From assembly GCA_905182575.1 (NCBI GenBank), contig CAJJCA010000006.1:1-64000 (forward strand): 64,000 nt of DNA, given 5' to 3'. Source of the DNA: an uncultured Flavobacteriaceae bacterium. Lineage in GTDB: Bacteria > Bacteroidota > Bacteroidia > Flavobacteriales > Flavobacteriaceae. Under the pieces are notes generated by a model that was given only the letters and a program-made list of their open reading frames with translations, made no database searches and was not told where the DNA came from. Positions within the stretch are counted from its first letter, which is position 1, and each line of letters opens with the position of its first letter. Shown here piece by piece: positions 48,311 to 63,339 of this stretch. Position numbers and translations under genes: made by a program.

Positions 48311-48892
48311 TTATTTATAAAAACTATTTTTCTGTAAGTATACCCAGCTGGCATGTGGCATTAAGGATTTAACGGATTCACCCTCCTGTAGGATTTTTCT
48401 GATATTTTTTGAGGCAAAGTCCAATTTTGGAGCATTGACCAACTGTATTTTCTCATGATGTAGCAAGTTCTCTGGAAATCCAATTTCATGCGTTCTCGGG
48501 TAGACATATATTTGAACGAGATCTAAAATCCGTCGGTATTCTTTCCACTGATCAAAATGAATCAGATTATCTTCTCCCATAAGTAACACAAATTGATCAT
48601 TGGGATGGTTTTCATAAAAATATTCTAAAGTGTCAATCGTATAATTTGGGGTAGGAAGTAAAAACTCAACATCAATTACTTTTAAACGGGATTGATTCTC
48701 CATAGCAAGGCGAACCATTTCCAATCGATGCTGGCCCTCTAGCAAGACTTCATTCACTTTAAAAGGATTTTGCGGGCTAACTACAAACCAAACTTCATCG
48801 AGAGATGTCTGCTGTGAAAAATAATTTCCCAAGCTGAGATGTCCTTTATGGATTGGATTAAACGACCCAAAATAAAGCCCAATTTTTTTCAT
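48311..48892 (-). CDS. nadD: Nicotinate-nucleotide adenylyltransferase
   Basis: This 193-residue nucleotidyltransferase has LYFGSFNPIHKGHL (the HxGH-containing ATP site), FVLLMGEDNLIHFDQWKEY, and FASKNIRKILQEGESVKSLMP, where the SxNIR element replaces the more common STxIR. It adenylates nicotinate mononucleotide for NAD synthesis. The start overlaps the gmk stop by one base, and the order yicC-gmk-nadD is common in flavobacteria. Confidence 0.93.
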   Translation of the reverse strand: MKKIGLYFGSFNPIHKGHLSLGNYFSQQTSLDEVWFVVSPQNPFKVNEVLLEGQHRLEMVRLAMENQSRLKVIDVEFLLPTPNYTIDTLEYFYENHPNDQFVLLMGEDNLIHFDQWKEYRRILDLVQIYVYPRTHEIGFPENLLHHEKIQLVNAPKLDFASKNIRKILQEGESVKSLMPHASWVYLQKNSFYK

Positions 48893-49461
48893 TAGGATTT
48901 TAAAAAGTGCTCTGCTTTTTCACAAACCTCCTTGATTGCCAAATCCAAATCATTGTTAATGACAATACTGTCAAATTTCGGAGCAGCATTAAGTTCTTTT
49001 TCTGCCTTTGCAACACGCTCTTGTATTTCGGCTTCACTCTCAGTACCTCTCGAACGCAATCGCTCTTCCAATACTGCTTTATTGGGTGGCTGAATAAAAA
49101 GAGCCAGTGTTTCCTGCGGATATTGGGATTTGATGTTCAATCCTCCCATCACGTCAATGTCAAAAATCACATGCTTTCCTGCCTCCCAATTTCTTTCTAT
49201 TTCAGATTTAAGGGTGCCATAATATTGATCGGCATAGACTTCTTCAAATTCAACAAACTCTTCCCGATCAATCTTATTTTTAAAGTCTTCTGAGCCTAAG
49301 AAATAATAATCCTTTCCGTCAACCTCGCCCGCTCTGGGTTTTCTAGAAGTAGTGGAAATGGAAAAAGATAGGGGTAGGTTTTTTTGCAAAAGCGCCTTAA
49401 CAAGTGTTGTTTTACCACTTCCAGAAGGGGCCGAAAAAACAATCAGTTTTCCTTTTTTCAA
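48892..49461 (-). CDS. gmk: Guanylate kinase
   Basis: This 189-residue protein has KLIVFSAPSGSGKTTLVKALL (P-loop), STTSRKPRAGEVDGKDYYFL for GMP binding, and DIDVMGGLNIK. It phosphorylates GMP to GDP. It begins directly after yicC (49462 is the yicC end) and its stop overlaps the nadD start by one base, a tight three-gene unit. Confidence 0.95.
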   Translation of the reverse strand: MKKGKLIVFSAPSGSGKTTLVKALLQKNLPLSFSISTTSRKPRAGEVDGKDYYFLGSEDFKNKIDREEFVEFEEVYADQYYGTLKSEIERNWEAGKHVIFDIDVMGGLNIKSQYPQETLALFIQPPNKAVLEERLRSRGTESEAEIQERVAKAEKELNAAPKFDSIVINNDLDLAIKEVCEKAEHFLKS

Positions 49462-50319
49462 TTATAAAACGTTGAGTAATTGTTCTTTTATTTTTTCCAA
49501 TTCATCTTTCATCTGCACCACAACTTTTTGAAGTGCGACATGGTTGGCTTTTGATCCAATGGTGTTGATTTCTCGACCCATTTCTTGAGCTATGAAACCT
49601 AACTTCTTACCACTCGAAACAGAAGCATCAAGCGTTTCTTTAAAGTAATCGATATGTGTTTTCAATCGAACTTTTTCCTCCGTAATGTCATACTTTTCAA
49701 GATAGTATATCAACTCTTGTTCAAAGCGATTTTGGTCGATTTCTACTTTCAAGTCATTTAAATTATCCTTGAGTCTATCACTCACTTTTTGAGTTCTTTC
49801 GGGATCAATTTCCTCGGCTTCAGCCAATAAATTTCTCAGTGCTTCTAAGCGTTTTAAGAATTCAATTTCAAGAGTTTTCCCTTCGTCAAGACGGTGCGAG
49901 TTTAGATGCTTCACAGCGACATTCAACAAATCTTTAATAGCAATCACCTCCAAATCATTCAGATCTTCAAGGTCAGTTTTTAAGACATCTGGAAGTCGCA
50001 TGGCAACTTTTAAAAGCTCGAACCGATTTCCCTCTTGTATCTGACTGAGCTGGTCAATGTATTGATTAACAGTATTGACGTTAATCGTCTTTGCATTGGA
50101 CAGGTTTGTATTTTCAATATGTAATGACAGGTCCACCTTCCCTCTTACGAGGGCTTCTCCTATCGTCTTTTTTAATTGATTTTCAATCTCTTTAAGATGA
50201 TAAGGAAGCCTTGTATTAAGGTCTAAACTTTTACTGTTTAAAGACCTTAATACTACAGAAATATTTTTATTGTCGAATTGCTTTTCGGCTTTTCCGAAGC
50301 CAGTCATTGATTGAATCAT
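49462..50319 (-). CDS. YicC/YloC family endoribonuclease
   Basis: This 285-residue protein opens with MIQSMTGFGKAEKQF, the YicC start, and closes with GKKLGFIAQEMGREINTIGSKANHV, the DUF1732 C-terminal motif. The middle is helical. E. coli YicC degrades a regulatory RNA; the role in Bacteroidota is less clear. It is the first gene of the yicC-gmk-nadD unit, seven bases from the DUF1080 gene. Confidence 0.92.
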   Translation of the reverse strand: MIQSMTGFGKAEKQFDNKNISVVLRSLNSKSLDLNTRLPYHLKEIENQLKKTIGEALVRGKVDLSLHIENTNLSNAKTINVNTVNQYIDQLSQIQEGNRFELLKVAMRLPDVLKTDLEDLNDLEVIAIKDLLNVAVKHLNSHRLDEGKTLEIEFLKRLEALRNLLAEAEEIDPERTQKVSDRLKDNLNDLKVEIDQNRFEQELIYYLEKYDITEEKVRLKTHIDYFKETLDASVSSGKKLGFIAQEMGREINTIGSKANHVALQKVVVQMKDELEKIKEQLLNVL

Positions 50320-50325
50320 GTGTGT

Positions 50326-51066
50326 TTAAAGTTCTCTAATTTTAATATTTCTATAAGAAACCACATCTCCATGATCTTGAAGACCAATTTTTCCAGTTTT
50401 GAATTTAGCAAAGTATTCCCAGTCAGAAAATTTTGAATTGGCAACTAAGTTGTCCCAACCCTCACCAGAAACAGGAAAGGTAACGATCTCAACACCGTTT
50501 TGAGTAACACTTCCTTGGTTGGTTTTGTGATTGATCATCACAACAATATGATTCCATTCTCCGGCAACTTTACAAACATCCTTAGTCGGTTGTACCATAT
50601 CGTATAAGGCACCCGCTTGGTGAAATTTAGGATTGGCCAAAGCATCAGGGTGACGCTCGTTGTCCAAGACCTGGATTTCTGGACCAGTTGAATAAGGTTT
50701 TCCATAAGCTTCTCCTTCATTAACCGCCCAAAAGATTCCACTGTTTCCTCCTTCTGAAATGTTCCACTCTAGAGAAAGCTCAAAACTGGTAAACTCCTTG
50801 TTAGTAACGATATCATCATTTTCTTTTTTACTTGATTTAAGCGCTGGGTCGAAAACCATTGCACCATCGACAATTGACCAAGCAGCACTCATCACCGTGC
50901 TATTGTATTTGTGCCATCCGTCAAAAGATTTGCCGTCAAAAAGGCTTGTCCATTCTGGTATCGCTTCCACTATTGGAGCTTCAATAAAATCAACTGATTT
51001 TTTCTTTGGTGCCTGCTTGCAAGCGAATAATAATGCAACTGTACTGATTAATAATAACTTTTTCAT
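50326..51066 (-). CDS. DUF1080 (3-keto-disaccharide hydrolase family) lipoprotein
   Basis: This 246-residue protein has a lipoprotein signal (MKKLLLISTVALLFACKQ). The DUF1080 motifs are WTSLFDGKSFDGWHKY, FELSLEWNISEGGNSGIFWAVNEG, GPEIQVLDNERHPDA, GEWNHIVVMINH and GKIGLQDHGDVVSYRNIKIREL. Characterised Bacteroidota relatives cleave 3-keto-glycosides after oxidation of the sugar C3. It is a concanavalin-like fold and here probably faces the periplasm or surface. It begins the minus-strand block that includes the isomerase and Gfo/Idh genes. Confidence 0.92.
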   Translation of the reverse strand: MKKLLLISTVALLFACKQAPKKKSVDFIEAPIVEAIPEWTSLFDGKSFDGWHKYNSTVMSAAWSIVDGAMVFDPALKSSKKENDDIVTNKEFTSFELSLEWNISEGGNSGIFWAVNEGEAYGKPYSTGPEIQVLDNERHPDALANPKFHQAGALYDMVQPTKDVCKVAGEWNHIVVMINHKTNQGSVTQNGVEIVTFPVSGEGWDNLVANSKFSDWEYFAKFKTGKIGLQDHGDVVSYRNIKIREL

Positions 51067-51077
51067 TTAATTAGTTT

Positions 51078-52125
51078 TTAAAGGTTTAATATTTTTTTAA
51101 GGTGTTTTTCATCAATTTCAGAACCTGCAAAATCATCGAAAGTTTTTTGAGTAGCTTCAATAATATGCGACTGAATGAAAGGCGCTCCTTCGCGGGCTCC
51201 TTGTTCGGGACTTTTTATACAGCACTCCCATTCCATCACTGCCCAAACATCACATCCATATTCTGTGAGTTTCGTAAAAATACTTTTAAAGTCAATCTGA
51301 CCATCGCCCAGTGATCGATATCTTCCAGCGCGATCAATCCAATCTCCATAACCTCCAAAAGCTCCTTTCTTTCCATTTGGTCGGAACTCAGAATCTTTTA
51401 CGTGAAAGGATTTTATGAATTCGTGATAGTGATCGATATATTCTAGATAATCTAATTGTTGTAATACAAAATGACTGGGGTCATAAAGGATGTTTACACG
51501 TTTGTGATTTCCAGTTTCTTTTAAAAATTCAAAAGTCACCCCATCATGGGTTCTCTCCTGGGTGAATTTCATAACAAACATCTACTCCGTTTTCATCAAA
51601 AGTGTCTAGTATGGGCAACCATCTTTTTGCCAATTCTTTAAATCCCATTTCAACCAAACCCACAGGCCTTTGAGGCCAAGGATGCCAAGTGTGCCAGAGT
51701 AGTGCCCCCGAAAACGTTGCATGTGCATTCAGACCTAATCGGCGAGAAGCAATCGCTGCATTTTTTAAGGTTTTAATGGCCCATTCGGTTCTGGCTTTAG
51801 GATTGTTTTTATAAGCATCAGGCGCAAAATTATCAAACATCAAATCATAGGCTGGGTGAACAGCAACCAACTGACCTTGAAGGTGGGTTGACAGTTCTGT
51901 GATTTCAAGTCCATAGGAATTGACTTTACCTTTGAGTTCATCACAATAAGTTTGACTTTCAGCGGCCTTGTCTAGGTCAATAAGAAAGGTTTCCCATGTT
52001 GGAATTTGAATTCCTTTATATCCTAGATCGGCAGCCCATTTGCACATACCATCAAGGGTGTTGAAAGGAGCTTCTTTGTCGACAAACTGCGCTAAAAAAA
52101 CCGCTGGCCCTTTTATTGTTTTCAT
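51078..52125 (-). CDS. Sugar phosphate isomerase/epimerase family TIM barrel, frameshifted
   Basis: The start is the ATG at 52125 (MKTIKGPAVFLAQFVDKEAPFNTLDGMCKWAADLGYKGIQIPTWE), overlapping the upstream Gfo/Idh stop by ATGA. The ORFs 52146-51544 and 51581-51078 are joined by a change near 51555-51560. The AP endonuclease 2-like TIM-barrel pattern is clear: GLEITELSTHLQGQL, WLPILDTFDENGVDVCYEIHPGE, NILYDPSHFVLQQLDYLEYI, SFHVKDSE, AVMEWECCIKSPEQGAREGAPFI. Without a signal peptide it is probably cytosolic. It likely acts on a keto sugar; relatives occur beside GMC and Gfo/Idh enzymes. It is about 350 residues. Confidence 0.87.
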
Positions 52126-53261
52126 TGATTTTCCATGCTGACCCATACGTTTCCATTTTTATTTGATTCAACAACTTTTTCGATAAATAGCATTCCACGG
52201 ACACCATCTTTCATGGTTGGAAATTCTCCATCATAAAAATCTTCTCCTCGAATCGCCTTGGCGACTCCTTTGTAAATATTACCCATAGCATCAAAAATTC
52301 CTTCGGGGTGTCCACCAGGCAATTTTGTTCCGTCAGCTCCAATCTCAGAGACATATGCGTTTCCAGGCTTGATTACCCTTCTTGGCTCGTCATCCTTTAA
52401 ATGGTACAAGTAATTTGGGTTTTCTTGCTCCCATCTGAAAGCGCCTTTTTTACCGTAAATGGCGACTGTGATGTTATTTTCATCTCCAGTAGCGATTTGA
52501 CTTGCACGAAGGACTCCTTTAAATTTATCAGAAAAACGAATTAAAACTGTTCCATCTATGTCTAAAGTATTGTCTTCATACAAATTATTTAAATCAGAAA
52601 GCAATGATTTGATTTCCATTCCAGTAAGATATTCGGCCATTTGAAAAGCGTGTGTTCCTATGTCTCCCATACAAGAACTGATTCCTGCTTTTTTGGGATC
52701 TAATCTCCAGACAGTTTTACGCATCTCAGGATCGTGAATTACCAGGATTGATCCAGCCTTGGTAATATTGAACATCTATTTTATGTATTTCTCCCAACTC
52801 TCCAGCCGCAATCATATGTTTCATATGACGAACCAACGGATAGCCCGTATAGGTGTAGGTGACAGCAAAAATGGCGTTGTACTTTTTCTGAAGTGACTCG
52901 AGTTCTTTAGCTTCCTCATAGGAAGTAGTCAAAGGCTTTTCGCAAATAACATTAAAACCATTTTCCAAAAGCTTTTTAGCCATAGTGAAATGCAAAAAAT
53001 TGGAGTTAGAACAGAAACAACTTCTATTCGCTCATCCGAAGGCTTACTCATTTCAGCTTCAATAAATTGATTAAAATTTTTGTAAACACGATCAGTATTT
53101 ATCCCAATATGTTTAGCGAATTTTATATTTTCCTCATAGTCGGGATTAAAAACACCCCCCACAATTTCATAACGATCAAACATGTAGGAAGCCACACGAT
53201 GTAATATCCCGATTAGGGAATCGCCCCCCCCTCCAAGAATACCAAGTCTAATTTTATTCAT
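52122..53261 (-). CDS. Gfo/Idh/MocA family oxidoreductase, frameshifted
   Basis: Three ORFs (53261-52929, 52995-52726 and 52775-52122) form one protein of about 380 residues. It starts MNKIRLGILGGGGDSLIGILHRVASYM, with the GGGG...HR glycine motif of the ThuB-like sugar oxidoreductases. Later are NGFNVICEKPLTTSYEEAKEL, the CEKP motif with the catalytic Lys, and SSCMGDIGTHAFQMAEYLTG. The frame changes are near 52985 and 52760. It is NAD(P)-linked and probably cytosolic, oxidising or reducing a (keto)sugar. It precedes the isomerase with an ATGA overlap, in one operon. Confidence 0.88.
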
Positions 53262-53356
53262 ATTTATTTTTTAGCTATCTCTAAATTTATTTAAAATATG
53301 ATTTTTTTTTGAACCAAAGTCACTAAAGACCCCTAAGTTGCATTCAGAAGAGTAGG

Positions 53357-54325
53357 TTACATTAACTTTAAAAGTAAATCCCGTGTCGCCAATATTCCTT
53401 CTTCTTCACTGAGGCGGCTTCCTTCATATTCTATTCCGATGTACTGGTCATATCCATTACTTTTGACAATAGAAATCAACCTTTGATAATCCAAAGTAGT
53501 TTCATTTCCTTCACCATCAAAGTCATATGATTTGGCACTAACCGCAAATGCTTTGGGCATCATTTCGGCGACTCCTTTGTAATTGTCATAAGATTCAATG
53601 CATGGGGCATCCCAAAGTTCATTATTTTCTCGTTTTAAACAAAAATTTCCAAAATCAGGAAGCGTGCCACAGTTTTTCATATTTACTTCATTGATGAGTT
53701 CCATTAAAAGGGCTGCATTGGAAGATAAATAACCATGATTTTCTACGATAATATTTACATTCAATGGAAGTGCATATTCAGACAGTTTAATTAGACTGAG
53801 TTTAGAATAACTTTTCCAAAGCTCAGGATCAGTCTCGCCAAACAAGTTGATTCTGATTGAATGGCAACCCATCGCTGCCGCTGCATTGATCCATTTTTTA
53901 TGATTTTCTATTGCAATTAGCCTCTCCTCTTCGTTTTGAGTTGCTAAATTCCCTTCCTCATCAACCATAATCAAAATATTTTTCAATCCAAATTTAGCCG
54001 AAAGCTCATTATTTTTTTGAATAAATATTTTGATCGCTGCCTCTGGATCATCACTTTTGGTGACATCAGTATATAACTGACTTACATACTCCAAGCCTTC
54101 AAAACCCCATTTGCTTGCCAAAGACGCAAATTCATAAGGGGAAATCTTATCTTCTCTGATCATCTTATTGATTGACCATTGTGCCAAAGATATTTTATAG
54201 GCTGGTGCTTCAACTTCAGTTGTCTTTTTAGCCGATATATTTTTACAAGAACTCAGGCTAAACAAAATTACTCCAACTCCAACTCCAATCGAAAGAACTG
54301 TTGTCAGTCTAATTTTTTTAATCAT
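53357..54325 (-). CDS. Periplasmic TIM-barrel sugar isomerase/epimerase-like lipoprotein
   Basis: This 322-residue protein has a lipoprotein signal (VLSIGVGVGVILFSLSSCKN). The rest is an AP endonuclease 2-like TIM barrel: SLAQWSINKMIREDKISPYEFASLASKWGFEGLEYVSQLY, MGCHSIRINLFGE, VNIIVENHGYLSSN, PDFGNFC, AVSAKSYDFDGEG and YIGIEYEGSRLSEEEGI. His, Asp and Glu residues expected for metal binding are present. It is exported, unlike the homologue at 51078. It is divergent from the GMC gene and likely belongs to the same locus. It may process the keto sugar in the periplasm; this is inference. Confidence 0.85.
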   Translation of the reverse strand: MIKKIRLTTVLSIGVGVGVILFSLSSCKNISAKKTTEVEAPAYKISLAQWSINKMIREDKISPYEFASLASKWGFEGLEYVSQLYTDVTKSDDPEAAIKIFIQKNNELSAKFGLKNILIMVDEEGNLATQNEEERLIAIENHKKWINAAAAMGCHSIRINLFGETDPELWKSYSKLSLIKLSEYALPLNVNIIVENHGYLSSNAALLMELINEVNMKNCGTLPDFGNFCLKRENNELWDAPCIESYDNYKGVAEMMPKAFAVSAKSYDFDGEGNETTLDYQRLISIVKSNGYDQYIGIEYEGSRLSEEEGILATRDLLLKLM

Positions 54326-54406
54326 AATGTTTTTTTTAAATTAAAAAGACAAAGTACGATAAAAAATATATACTTTTATTTCGCAAAAAATACAATAAAT
54401 TGATTT

Positions 54407-56098
54407 ATGGAAAACACATACGATGCAATTGTCGTTGGGACAGGCATAAGTGGTGGCTGGGCAGCAAAAGAACTTTGTGAGAAGGGTCTTAAAACATTGG
54501 TGCTAGAAAGAGGAAGAATGCTCAAGCATGTTGAGGACTATACAACCGCACATAAAGATCCCTGGGATTATAAAGCAGGGGATAAGATTACCAAAGAAAT
54601 TCGCAAGAAGCAACCCAAACAAAGTCGAACGAACTATGTCAACACTGAGTCATCATCACATTTATTTGTTGATGACAATGAGCATCCTTATAATGAGGTA
54701 AAAAGATTTGATTGGATTCGAGGCTATCACCTTGGCGGTAGATCGCTCATGTGGGGAAGACAAAGTTATCGTTTGAGTGATTTTGATTTTGGAGCAAATG
54801 CAAAAGATGGTGTCGCTGTGGATTGGCCCATTAGATATAAAGACTTATCTCCCTGGTATGATTATGTTGAAGAATATGTGGGAATAAGCGGAGAAAAGCT
54901 AGGTCTACCACAATTGCCAGATGGTAAATTTCTAAAACCGATGGAGATGAATTGTGTTGAAAATTCATTTAAAAACTCCATTGCAGAAAAATATGATGAT
55001 CGAGTGATTACCATGGGCCGAGTTGCTAATATTACTGAGGGAACAAAACCTGGATTAGGAAGAATGACATGCCAATACCGGAACCGATGCAGAAGAGGGT
55101 GTCCGTTTGGAGCATATTTCAGTAGCAACTCATCCACGCTCCCTGCTGCAGAGGCAACAGGAAATATGACGTTAAGAACGAATTCTGTTGTTTACGAAGT
55201 GATGTATGATGTTGATAATAAAAGAGCTACAGGGGTTAAAGTAATTGATTCTGAAACGAATCAAACCTATGAGTTTAAAGCCAAAGTAATTTTCTTGTGT
55301 GCCTCGACAATTGCCTCAACATCAATATTAATGCAATCGACCTCTGATCGTTTTCCTAATGGAATGGGGAATGATTCTGGAGAGTTGGGACATAATTTGA
55401 TGGACCATCACTTTCGTTTGGGTGCTTCTGCAACCTATGATGGTTTTAAAGATAAATACTATACTGGAAGAAGACCCAATGGAATATACATCCCTAGATT
55501 TAGAAACCTGGGAGGAAGTACCAACCAAAAAGAATTCATAAGAGGTTATGGTTATCAAGGAGGTGCAAGTAGATCGGACTGGAGTGAGAATATCAAAGAA
55601 ATGGCTTATGGTGCTGATTTGAAAAAAACAATAATGGAGCCTGGAGACTGGAAGATGGGCATGACTGGTTTTGGCGAAACACTCCCTTATCATGAGAATA
55701 AAATGTATTTAGATAATGAGAAGAAAGACAAATGGGGCTTACCTACTGTCACTTTTGATGCAGAATTTAAGGAAAACGAATTCGCAATGCGTAAAGACAT
55801 AAAACAGCAAGCCGCTGAAATGTTGGAAGCTGCAGGATTTAAAAATGTTAATGAATTTGATAAAGGATCTACCCTTGGTTTAGGAATTCACGAAATGGGT
55901 ACAGCCAGAATGGGGCACGATCCCAAAACATCTGTATTAAACAGAAATAATCAACTTCATACTGTTCCCAATGTATATGTTACCGATGGGGCGGCAATGA
56001 CCTCGGCTGGAAATCAAAATCCTTCCCTGACCTATATGGCTTTGACTGCCAGGGCTGCAAACCATGCTGTTGAAGAATTAAAAAAAATGAATATTTAA
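54407..56098 (+). CDS. GMC-family FAD-dependent sugar dehydrogenase, large subunit
   Basis: This 563-residue protein begins MENTYDAIVVGTGISGGWAAKELCEKGLKTLVLERG, with the FAD-binding GTGISGG. It has GYHLGGRSLMWGRQSYR, CRRGCPFGAYFSSNSSTLPAA, and at the end GLGIHEMGTARMGHDPKTSVLNRNNQLHTVPNVYVTDGAAMTSAGNQNPSLTYMAL, with the GMC His and Asn region. It lacks its own signal peptide. It pairs with the small subunit (10 bases downstream), which has a Tat-type signal, so export as a complex is likely. Relatives oxidise sugars at C3 or gluconate and pass electrons to cytochrome c. Confidence 0.93.
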   Translation: MENTYDAIVVGTGISGGWAAKELCEKGLKTLVLERGRMLKHVEDYTTAHKDPWDYKAGDKITKEIRKKQPKQSRTNYVNTESSSHLFVDDNEHPYNEVKRFDWIRGYHLGGRSLMWGRQSYRLSDFDFGANAKDGVAVDWPIRYKDLSPWYDYVEEYVGISGEKLGLPQLPDGKFLKPMEMNCVENSFKNSIAEKYDDRVITMGRVANITEGTKPGLGRMTCQYRNRCRRGCPFGAYFSSNSSTLPAAEATGNMTLRTNSVVYEVMYDVDNKRATGVKVIDSETNQTYEFKAKVIFLCASTIASTSILMQSTSDRFPNGMGNDSGELGHNLMDHHFRLGASATYDGFKDKYYTGRRPNGIYIPRFRNLGGSTNQKEFIRGYGYQGGASRSDWSENIKEMAYGADLKKTIMEPGDWKMGMTGFGETLPYHENKMYLDNEKKDKWGLPTVTFDAEFKENEFAMRKDIKQQAAEMLEAAGFKNVNEFDKGSTLGLGIHEMGTARMGHDPKTSVLNRNNQLHTVPNVYVTDGAAMTSAGNQNPSLTYMALTARAANHAVEELKKMNI

Positions 56099-56108
56099 TC
56101 AATTAAAG

Positions 56109-56753
56109 ATGAATAGAAGAAAAGCTTTAAAAAATATTGGAATGGGATTTGGCGCTATAACTGCCACACCCGCAGTTGTTGGTCTTTTTCAAAGTTGTCA
56201 GACTGCTGCTCCTAATTGGAAGCCAATTCATTTTACGCAAGACCAGTTTGGTGTCGTTTCAAAACTAATGGACATTATCATTCCAACTACAGATATTCCA
56301 GGAGCAATCGAATTGAAACTCCCAGAATTTTTAGATGGTTATGTGGATGCAATAATCAATACGAAAGGTCAAGAATCTTTGATTTTAGGACTGAATCAAT
56401 ACATTGCTATAGCTCTTGAGGAAAAGGGAGATGATGATGCAGGTGATCTAACCTCCGAGGAACTTGAAGTGCCATTATCAAAGTACCTTCGAGGGGATGA
56501 AGTGCAACAAAAAAATTGGTCAAAAGCAGTTTCGGCCTATAAAGCAGCTGTGAAAAAGGACAGTGCTGCCTCCATTCCAAAAGAAGCGTTGGCCTATGAG
56601 TTTGCTGTTCAACTTAGGTCAATGACCATCACCGCGTTTAAAACCAACGAGTACATTGGTGAAAACATATTGGCCTATGTGCCGATACCAGGGCAACAAA
56701 AAGGTTGTGTTGATTTAATGGAAGCTACAGGAGGAAAAGCCTATTCTTTATAG
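56109..56753 (+). CDS. Gluconate 2-dehydrogenase subunit 3-like small subunit
   Basis: This 214-residue protein starts MNRRKALKNIGMGFGAITATPAVVGLFQSC, a Tat-like twin-Arg signal with a lipobox-like Cys. The body includes VVSKLMDIIIPTTDIPGAIELKLPEFLDGYVDAI, the gluconate 2-dehydrogenase subunit 3 domain, and ENILAYVPIPGQQKGCVDL. It partners the GMC subunit directly upstream. Its last bases overlap the convergent cytochrome c gene. It may chaperone and export the FAD subunit by the Tat route. Confidence 0.9.
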   Translation: MNRRKALKNIGMGFGAITATPAVVGLFQSCQTAAPNWKPIHFTQDQFGVVSKLMDIIIPTTDIPGAIELKLPEFLDGYVDAIINTKGQESLILGLNQYIAIALEEKGDDDAGDLTSEELEVPLSKYLRGDEVQQKNWSKAVSAYKAAVKKDSAASIPKEALAYEFAVQLRSMTITAFKTNEYIGENILAYVPIPGQQKGCVDLMEATGGKAYSL

Positions 56754-57227
56754 ACTTCTAAAATATTCTGCAATAGCTCGAGTCTCGTCTTCTGTTAAAT
56801 TTTGATTTAACATCATGACGTTATTGTATTCTTTAAGCAATGATATTGCAGTAGGATCTTTTTGCAACATTTCTGTAGGGTTTAGAATCATATTCATAAC
56901 CCATGCTGGATTTCTACGTTCATAAATCCCTTTCATTGCAGGTCCGATGAGTTTTCTTTCTGCCATGTGACAAGCCGTACATTTTTGTTTAAATGCTGCC
57001 GCACCTGTTTCAACAAGTTTATCATCTATTTTAGCATCAAATTTCATTGAGCTTATGGGGCCAATACCTTTATTGGAAAGATCAATTGCAGTTTTTCCAG
57101 CAGCAATATTTTTAACAGGAGCTTCTTTTTGAGTTCTGTTGTATTCAAATCCTTTTTTCTTTTCAGTTTTTGAGCCACAGCTAATCAAAAGTATTGAAGT
57201 GAACAGAATAAAGAGCAATTTTCTCAT
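56748..57227 (-). CDS. Class I cytochrome c lipoprotein
   Basis: This 159-residue protein has a lipoprotein signal (LFILFTSILLISCGSK, Cys17). Heme is bound by CTACH at residues 83-87. A Met-containing distal region (NVMMLNQNLTEDETRAIAEYFRSL) provides the axial ligand. It is convergent with the dehydrogenase small subunit and overlaps it by six bases. It is the likely electron acceptor for the GMC dehydrogenase, as in known glucoside 3-dehydrogenase systems. Confidence 0.92.
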   Translation of the reverse strand: MRKLLFILFTSILLISCGSKTEKKKGFEYNRTQKEAPVKNIAAGKTAIDLSNKGIGPISSMKFDAKIDDKLVETGAAAFKQKCTACHMAERKLIGPAMKGIYERRNPAWVMNMILNPTEMLQKDPTAISLLKEYNNVMMLNQNLTEDETRAIAEYFRSL

Positions 57228-61817: not shown

Positions 61818-61972
61818 ATTCTTTCTTGAAAATTATTTTTTATCAACCACTGCCTAACAAATTCTTTAGATAACTTTTAATTTAAAAATGTAAGTTCTAT
61901 TCCCACACTATTTTTATATTTTTTAATACATTGTATGAATATCAAATAAACCTTGTTTTAATTAATCAAAAA

Positions 61973-63339
61973 ATGAAAAAGATAATTCTCCTTATCGCTA
62001 TTTATTTGGTTTCAAACGGAATAAATGCGCAACAGAAAAAGATTTGGGATGAAACCAAAGAAGAAAAAACGGAACGCCTTGCCTGGTGGACTAACGATCG
62101 TTTTGGAATGTTTATTCATTGGGGATCTTATTCTTTAGCGAGCAGACACGAATGGGTTAAGAAACACGAAGTAATTGATGATGTAACCTATAAGAAGTAC
62201 TTTGATAATTTCAATCCAGATTTATACAATCCCAGAGAATGGGCAAAATTGGCCAAAGCTGCCGGAATGAAGTATGCGGTAATCACAACTAAACACCATG
62301 AAGGTTTTACCTTGTTTGATTCTGATTTCACAGAATATAATGTAACAAACACTCCTTATGGAAAAGATGCTCTCAAAGAATGGGTCGATGCTTTTAGAGA
62401 AGAAGGTTTGAAAATCGGGTTTTATTATTCATTGATTGATTGGCATCATCCCGAATATACAATCGACAGGGTTCACCCCTTAAAGCCAAAAAACAAAGAA
62501 GATTATAAGGCGCTAAATAAAGAAAGGGACATGTCCGTTTATCGAGAATACTTGATGAACCAGGTGACGGAAATATTGACCAATTATGGAAAGGTTGACA
62601 TGTTATGGTTAGACTATTCCTTTCCCGATTATGTAAAGTCAAGTTTACGCAGATTTGTTCAATTAAACTCATAAAAAAGGTTCGAAAGCTTCAGCCTGAG
62701 ATCATCGTAAACGACAGACTTGATTTAAAAGAATATTGGGGTGGATGGGATTTCACAACGCCTGAACAGTTTAAAGTCAAAGAATGGCCCACCTTCGAAG
62801 GAGAAAAAATCCCTTGGGAAACTTGTCAAACTTTTAGTGGTTCTTGGGGGTATTATCGAGATGAACTTAAATGGAAGGACAACAAACAATTGTTGGTTTT
62901 GTTGATAGAATCGGTAAGTAAAGGAGGTAATCTTTTGCTGAATGTAGGCCCTACTGGAAGAGGGACCATCGACTATCGCGCAGAAAATGCATTATCTGAA
63001 ATTGGCGACTGGATGAGGTTCAATAATAGGGCCATTTACGGTTGTACTCAGGCGCCTGAAGCTTTTGAGGTTCCAGACAATTCATTGCTGACTTATAATC
63101 CTGAGACAAACAGGCTCTACATTCATTTGCTAGATTATCCGCTTCAGAATTTCACCTTGAAAGGAATGAAAGGAAAAATTAAATATATACAGTTCTTACA
63201 TGATGCTTCAGAAATAAAAATCTCAAATCCAGTGGGACATTGGATTAAGGAGGAAGTGGCTGAAGGAGATGTAAATTTAGTTTTACCGGTTACCAAGCCT
63301 CCAGTTGAAGTGCCTGTAATAGAGGTGTTTTTAAAATAA
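61973..63339 (+). CDS. Alpha-L-fucosidase, GH29, frameshifted
   Basis: The start is MKKIILLIAIYLVSNGINAQQKK at 61973, a signal peptide, so the enzyme is periplasmic or secreted. GH29 signatures: RFGMFIHWGSYSLASRHEW, EWAKLAKAAGMKYAVITTKHHEGFTLFDS, GFYYSLIDWHHPEY, VDMLWLDYSFPDY (the probable nucleophile region), ESVSKGGNLLLNVGPTGRGTI. The frame changes near 62640. About 455 residues in total. It removes terminal L-fucose from glycans. No SusC/SusD pair, transporter or regulator is adjacent, so its polysaccharide target is open. Confidence 0.9.

Follow-up and report, generated by a model that had tools for sequence, protein, structure and literature searches.

Do a flavin-dependent dehydrogenase, a lipoprotein of the DUF1080 family and a protein resembling a sugar isomerase, encoded side by side in an uncultured marine member of the Flavobacteriaceae, belong to one route, and what would that route do? 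The question is raised by positions 50326 to 57227 of a stretch of 64,000 nucleotides (contig CAJJCA010000006.1, assembly GCA_905182575.1), from here on called the window. The original prediction, made from the letters of the window, was that a glycoside is first oxidized to the 3-keto-glycoside by an exported GMC dehydrogenase complex and then cleaved by the exported DUF1080 protein. Gene set, export signals and co-occurrence support such an oxidation-first route, and we consider it likely that the locus encodes a non-hydrolytic glycoside-cleavage system operating by oxidation, elimination, hydration and reduction. The route and LacABC-DUF1080 clusters in Bacteroidota have already been published, and the locus is a well-supported new example in marine Flavobacteriaceae; no paper on exactly this gene set in Flavobacteriaceae turned up in a literature search.

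The seven types of protein predicted for the locus were all confirmed by Pfam at their positions, within a span of 6.9 kb and not of the eight kilobases first given. They are encoded in two divergent arms whose starts, taken from the open reading frame coordinates, are 81 bp apart (intergenic region 54326-54406). The leftward arm runs from a TIM-barrel lipoprotein via a Gfo/Idh/MocA oxidoreductase (Gfo) and the PF01261 "sugar isomerase" to the DUF1080 lipoprotein; the rightward arm consists of the GMC dehydrogenase followed by a small subunit of the subunit-3 family, after which comes a convergent gene for a cytochrome c lipoprotein. The locus was compared with 120 contexts around the same GMC, gathered by scanning both named genomes and genomes of the family, some of these contexts being from the same organism twice.

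The proposed route and its enzymes

Reading what was observed (which genes are present, the order they keep, their homologies, their motifs and their signals) as one pathway, we infer its reactions, the direction in which Gfo works, the path of the electrons and the substrate as follows. The small subunit with its twin-arginine translocation (Tat) signal would export the GMC subunit, which would act outside the inner membrane and oxidize a glycoside at carbon 3, the electrons passing from flavin adenine dinucleotide (FAD), then probably via an iron-sulfur cluster, to the cytochrome c lipoprotein. Beta-elimination by the DUF1080 lipoprotein, perhaps assisted by the TIM-barrel lipoprotein, would then release the aglycone or the second sugar and yield 2-hydroxy-3-keto-glucal, or 3-keto-glucose after hydration, for uptake via a transporter (normally encoded in the operon, absent here). 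Inside the cell the hydratase would hydrate the product and Gfo would reduce it to the free hexose.

The protein that was predicted to isomerize the sugar (51078-52146, reverse strand; PF01261) turned out to be a full-length homologue of 2-hydroxy-3-keto-glucal hydratase, of which hydration of the elimination product is expected. The intact orthologue in the sister genome G020 aligns from residue 8 to residue 356 with PDB entry 8ro4 (546 bits, E = 3.8e-163), the next solved structure scoring 143 bits; 8ro4 is named 2-hydroxy-3-keto-glucal hydratase and is presumably the Agrobacterium enzyme. The hydratase motifs YE.HPGE, YDPSH, FHVKD and EWE are kept in nearly all of 79 relatives, the window copy being frameshifted (near 51548). 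With the match to 8ro4 the gene set therefore fits the four-step route, and the usual label of this core gene, "sugar phosphate isomerase/epimerase," is to be corrected to hydratase. The gene overlaps by 25 bp with that of Gfo (52122-53261, reverse strand; Pfam C-terminal domains, frameshifts near 52744 and 53001), a probable 3-keto-sugar reductase whose orthologue has PDB entry 3v5n as nearest solved structure (301 bits).

The DUF1080 lipoprotein (50326-51066, reverse strand) has a single PF06439 domain (1.7e-48), a lipobox-like motif for export and a QDHGD motif, the His of which is invariant in 18 aligned relatives. Its matches to PDB entries 8rr2, 8tda, 9fbe and 3osd (1e-32 to 4e-33) retain QDHG(D), and these solved matches are 3-keto-disaccharide enzymes of the BT2157 kind. 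Cleavage had been thought of as hydrolysis, which does not agree with the description of the 3-keto-O-glycoside enzyme of Bacteroides thetaiotaomicron as an eliminating lyase with a separable hydration activity (PMC13273386). We infer that this lyase is the DUF1080 protein BT2157. Judged by its family and motif, the protein of the locus is probably a lyase that would cleave 3-keto-glycosides by beta-elimination.

The GMC dehydrogenase (54407-56098, forward strand; Pfam GMC N- and C-terminal domains) is probably the catalytic subunit of a glycoside 3-dehydrogenase. Its best solved matches are fructose dehydrogenase and FAD glucose dehydrogenase, and its Cys222, Cys228 and Cys232 as well as His495 and Asn538, all invariant in 15 relatives, align with fructose dehydrogenase, one of the three-subunit FAD sugar dehydrogenases. 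The protein has no signal of its own and is paired with the gluconate 2-dehydrogenase subunit 3 family small subunit (56109-56753, forward strand; PF13618, 2.3e-19), which carries the twin-arginine signal NRRKALKN and probably co-exports the GMC subunit; a Tat-like motif is found on the small subunit in 107 of 113 relatives. The cytochrome c lipoprotein (56748-57227, reverse strand; PF00034, 3.7e-09), encoded convergently to the small subunit, is the probable electron acceptor. Specificity of the dehydrogenase for carbon 3 is probable by analogy, from the neighboring genes and the published systems.

Export signals were called by simple motif rules and not by a trained predictor. In the locus, the DUF1080 protein, the TIM-barrel protein and the cytochrome each have a lipobox-like motif. 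These motifs recur in relatives, in which most DUF1080 and cytochrome c proteins carry a lipobox and the hydratases carry no signal. Hydratase and Gfo of the locus likewise lack an export signal, the hydrophobic stretch at the N-terminus of Gfo being the glycine-rich nucleotide-binding segment. By these predicted signals, relatives as a rule oxidize and cleave with exported proteins and process the product in the cytosol. The split had been called unusual, yet it recurs in nearly all of them, and the same layout has been published: for Caulobacter and Bacteroidota, LacABC with DUF1080 had been proposed to carry out oxidation and cleavage in the periplasm (PMC9007349).

Among the closest systems already known is the operon of Agrobacterium tumefaciens: GlycDH oxidizes carbon 3, elimination of the aglycone by a lyase leaves 2-hydroxy-3-keto-glucal, which a hydratase converts to 3-keto-glucose, and Gfo reduces the latter to glucose (PMC10628242). 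Both the locus and this GlycDH-TAT-OGE-HYD-Gfo operon combine a hydratase and Gfo with a flavoprotein dehydrogenase that has a Tat small subunit and with a TIM-barrel protein that is a lyase or lyase-like (PMC10628242); the locus differs in having DUF1080 and in that its TIM-barrel protein is exported as a lipoprotein and is altered at the metal site. A LacABC plus DUF1080 route for lactose, backed by fitness data, has been described for Caulobacter, with clusters in Pedobacter, Algoriphagus and Indibacter (PMC9007349). There, as here, a three-part dehydrogenase adjoins DUF1080, epimerase-like proteins and a reductase; a transporter, which the locus lacks, is also encoded there. The substrates of the Caulobacter system are lactose and related glycosides, and the available part of the paper assigns no hydratase; it describes the DUF1080 enzyme BT2157 of B. 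thetaiotaomicron as a 3-ketotrehalose hydrolase (PMC9007349). The DUF1080 protein of the locus is of the same family as BT2157. In the neighborhood of BT2157 oxidation is presumably carried out by Gfo/Idh enzymes, not by a GMC-cytochrome complex as here.

The TIM-barrel lipoprotein

Which of the two exported lipoproteins would be the lyase? The TIM-barrel lipoprotein (53357-54325, reverse strand; PF01261, 3.7e-19) belongs to the 4ovx family (profile match to PDB entry 4ovx 355 bits), and its profile matches also include the CGE/DgpC subunits of 3-keto-glycoside lyases. In an AlphaFold model (predicted local distance difference test score 90), built from an alignment of the window and relatives' loci with the plasmid-derived rows left out, Foldseek found DgpC-type 3-keto-C-glycoside lyases to be closest after 4ovx. 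The protein keeps the beta-5 ligand and catalytic His (Glu-x-His), the beta-6 Asp and the beta-8 Glu of the Mn-dependent lyases AtOGE and CGE; among 89 contexts ENHG is present in 89, LPDFG or LADFG in 87 and an EYEG-type motif in 86. Where lyases have the metal-binding His of beta-7, about 83 of the 88 TIM-barrel lipoproteins that could be read have Ser and 2 have His. Because of this Ser the protein was not filed with the Mn-dependent 3-keto-glycoside lyases.

With the same chemistry, the TIM-barrel lipoprotein could be the main lyase and DUF1080 an accessory lyase, or a hydratase, for other linkages. This is suggested by its presence in 89 of 120 contexts, more than for any other neighbor of GMC except the small subunit, by its structural closeness to DgpC and CGE with Glu-x-His, Asp and Glu kept, and by six long contexts with TIM-barrel protein, hydratase and Gfo in which no DUF1080 homologue was detected. 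We nevertheless regard it as unlikely, since a change of the equivalent His to Ala in AtOGE leaves an activity below 0.1% (PMC10628242) and since contexts L049 and L060, the DUF1080 and Gfo proteins of which are among the closest to those of the window, keep DUF1080 without a TIM-barrel gene. Slightly less unlikely, but still improbable, is a reading in which the exported TIM-barrel lipoprotein represents a separate class of 3-keto-glycoside lyase or epimerase, its metal site rebuilt with Ser in place of His, and acts alongside DUF1080. If so, one operon would encode two exported lyases that are not related to each other, for instance acting on different anomers; the comparison in any case singles out the TIM-barrel lipoprotein as a conserved protein of the locus.

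The fold also matches the 3-keto-glucoside 4-epimerase YcjR of Escherichia coli and tagatose 3-epimerases, which would suit a route without bond cleavage, in which the glycoside is oxidized at carbon 3, epimerized by the TIM-barrel protein and reduced again. Pure epimerization would leave the hydratase and the DUF1080 lyase homologue without a role, and oxidation by an exported flavoprotein would have to be matched with reduction in the cytosol. Because a hydratase is present, epimerization is very improbable as the main function.

Recurrence of the gene set and electron carriers

The original prediction called for a comparison of the gene set across genomes, a lack of co-occurrence counting against it, and it withstood this comparison, in which the core recurred: among the 120 contexts GMC was found in 119, subunit 3 in 113, the TIM-barrel lipoprotein in 89, Gfo in 87, DUF1080 in 84 and the hydratase in 80. 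A transporter of the MFS type, from the nucleoside-symporter family, was found in 73. The common order is DUF1080, hydratase, Gfo, MFS and TIM-barrel protein, with GMC and the small subunit on the opposite strand, and in 62 of 79 hydratase contexts hydratase, Gfo, DUF1080, TIM-barrel protein and subunit 3 are all together. Of 151 family genomes, 71 have a strong GMC match together with the hydratase, 70 have neither, and 8 and 2 are discordant (Fisher p about 5e-31, indicative only, since the family genomes are related and a few contexts are duplicated). Beyond the family, the full set plus a c-type cytochrome is found on a Hymenobacter plasmid, a close variant with a more distant GMC on a Pseudoalteromonas plasmid, and a close variant with no annotated DUF1080 on a Croceicoccus plasmid. 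Breakdown of glycosides by oxidation, elimination, hydration and reduction thus probably has a common, conserved chromosomal locus in Flavobacteriaceae, the uncultured lineages with small genomes included, and about half of the sampled family genomes would hold a candidate glycoside-cleaving route that is missed in searches for glycosidases.

The GMC complex might instead oxidize another sugar or a polyol for energy, its neighbors forming a separate route linked to it by position only. The fructose and glucose dehydrogenases among its solved matches fit this proposal, as do 14 of 83 long GMC contexts in which DUF1080, TIM-barrel protein, hydratase and Gfo are all missing, which indicates that the GMC family has other associations. 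The strong co-occurrence, the 81 bp between the divergent arms and the recurrence of the set in Hymenobacter, Croceicoccus and, with the more distant GMC, Pseudoalteromonas speak against two separate routes, which we hold to be quite improbable.

Besides these 14 contexts, several points weigh against the four-step route. The kinship of the genomes makes the Fisher p overstate their independence; the carbon-3 regiospecificity of GMC cannot be fixed from its sequence alone. A search for the GlycDH operon of A. tumefaciens led, on Rhizobium and Agrobacterium plasmids, to other GMC clusters. In several Proteobacteria the hydratase-Gfo pair occurs without GMC, in two cases beside ABC sugar importers with no GMC nearby and in another with no GMC in the stretch shown; the pair therefore looks like a reusable cytosolic module. 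Finally, a cytochrome c homologue is present in the locus in only 18 of the 120 contexts.

An azurin/plastocyanin-type cupredoxin is encoded near GMC in 23 contexts (e.g., L073:18470-18985), and a single context has both this and cytochrome c. Because the cupredoxin contexts nearly all lack a cytochrome c gene, the electron carriers seem to be exchangeable, an azurin-like copper protein taking the place of cytochrome c in other lineages.

Transporter, draft sequence and neighboring genes

The usual MFS gene for an inner-membrane transporter, expected between Gfo and the TIM-barrel gene, appears to be missing in this genus: it is absent from the locus both in the window (53262-53356) and in G020 (context L129). 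It was not found elsewhere in genome G000 or in G020, which is 99% complete, while four control relatives have it; it is also missing from the fetched contexts L049, L060, L097 and L128. A different MFS protein is encoded in 16 contexts, often in the same slot, and has homologues elsewhere in G000 and G020, in G000 beside another DUF1080 gene. It is plausible that this protein replaces the missing transporter.

Comparison with G020, whose GMC protein is 97% identical to that of the window, places small indels in the window's hydratase gene (2 bp near 51548) and Gfo gene (1 bp near 52744 and another 1 bp near 53001), which split both genes; the G020 counterparts are intact with 357 and 379 amino acids, respectively. 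These frameshifts are probably assembly errors, because the genome assembly of the window is only 70.7% complete and other genes of the window are split as well (hflX-like, cystathionine synthase-like, fucosidase).

The statement that no glycosidase stands beside the locus holds for its immediate surroundings, not for the alpha-L-fucosidase gene 4.7 kb away (61931-63339), which is broken into two reading frames. As a member of the locus this gene was rejected, even a weak match being found in just one context. Genes similar to yicC, gmk and nadD follow within a few bases downstream of DUF1080 (48311-51066), and a yicC or gmk homologue is present in about 30-38 of the 120 contexts.

G000 contains a second close copy of GMC (C28:4534-6217, in context L179:4534-6217), about 65-70% identical and frameshifted, with the rest of the module not nearby. 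A second, distant pair of GMC and subunit 3 is located in G000 near a broken DUF1080 gene (C5:27000-46999, context L013) together with beta-hexosaminidase-like and NagB-like genes, and may represent a parallel route for amino sugars.

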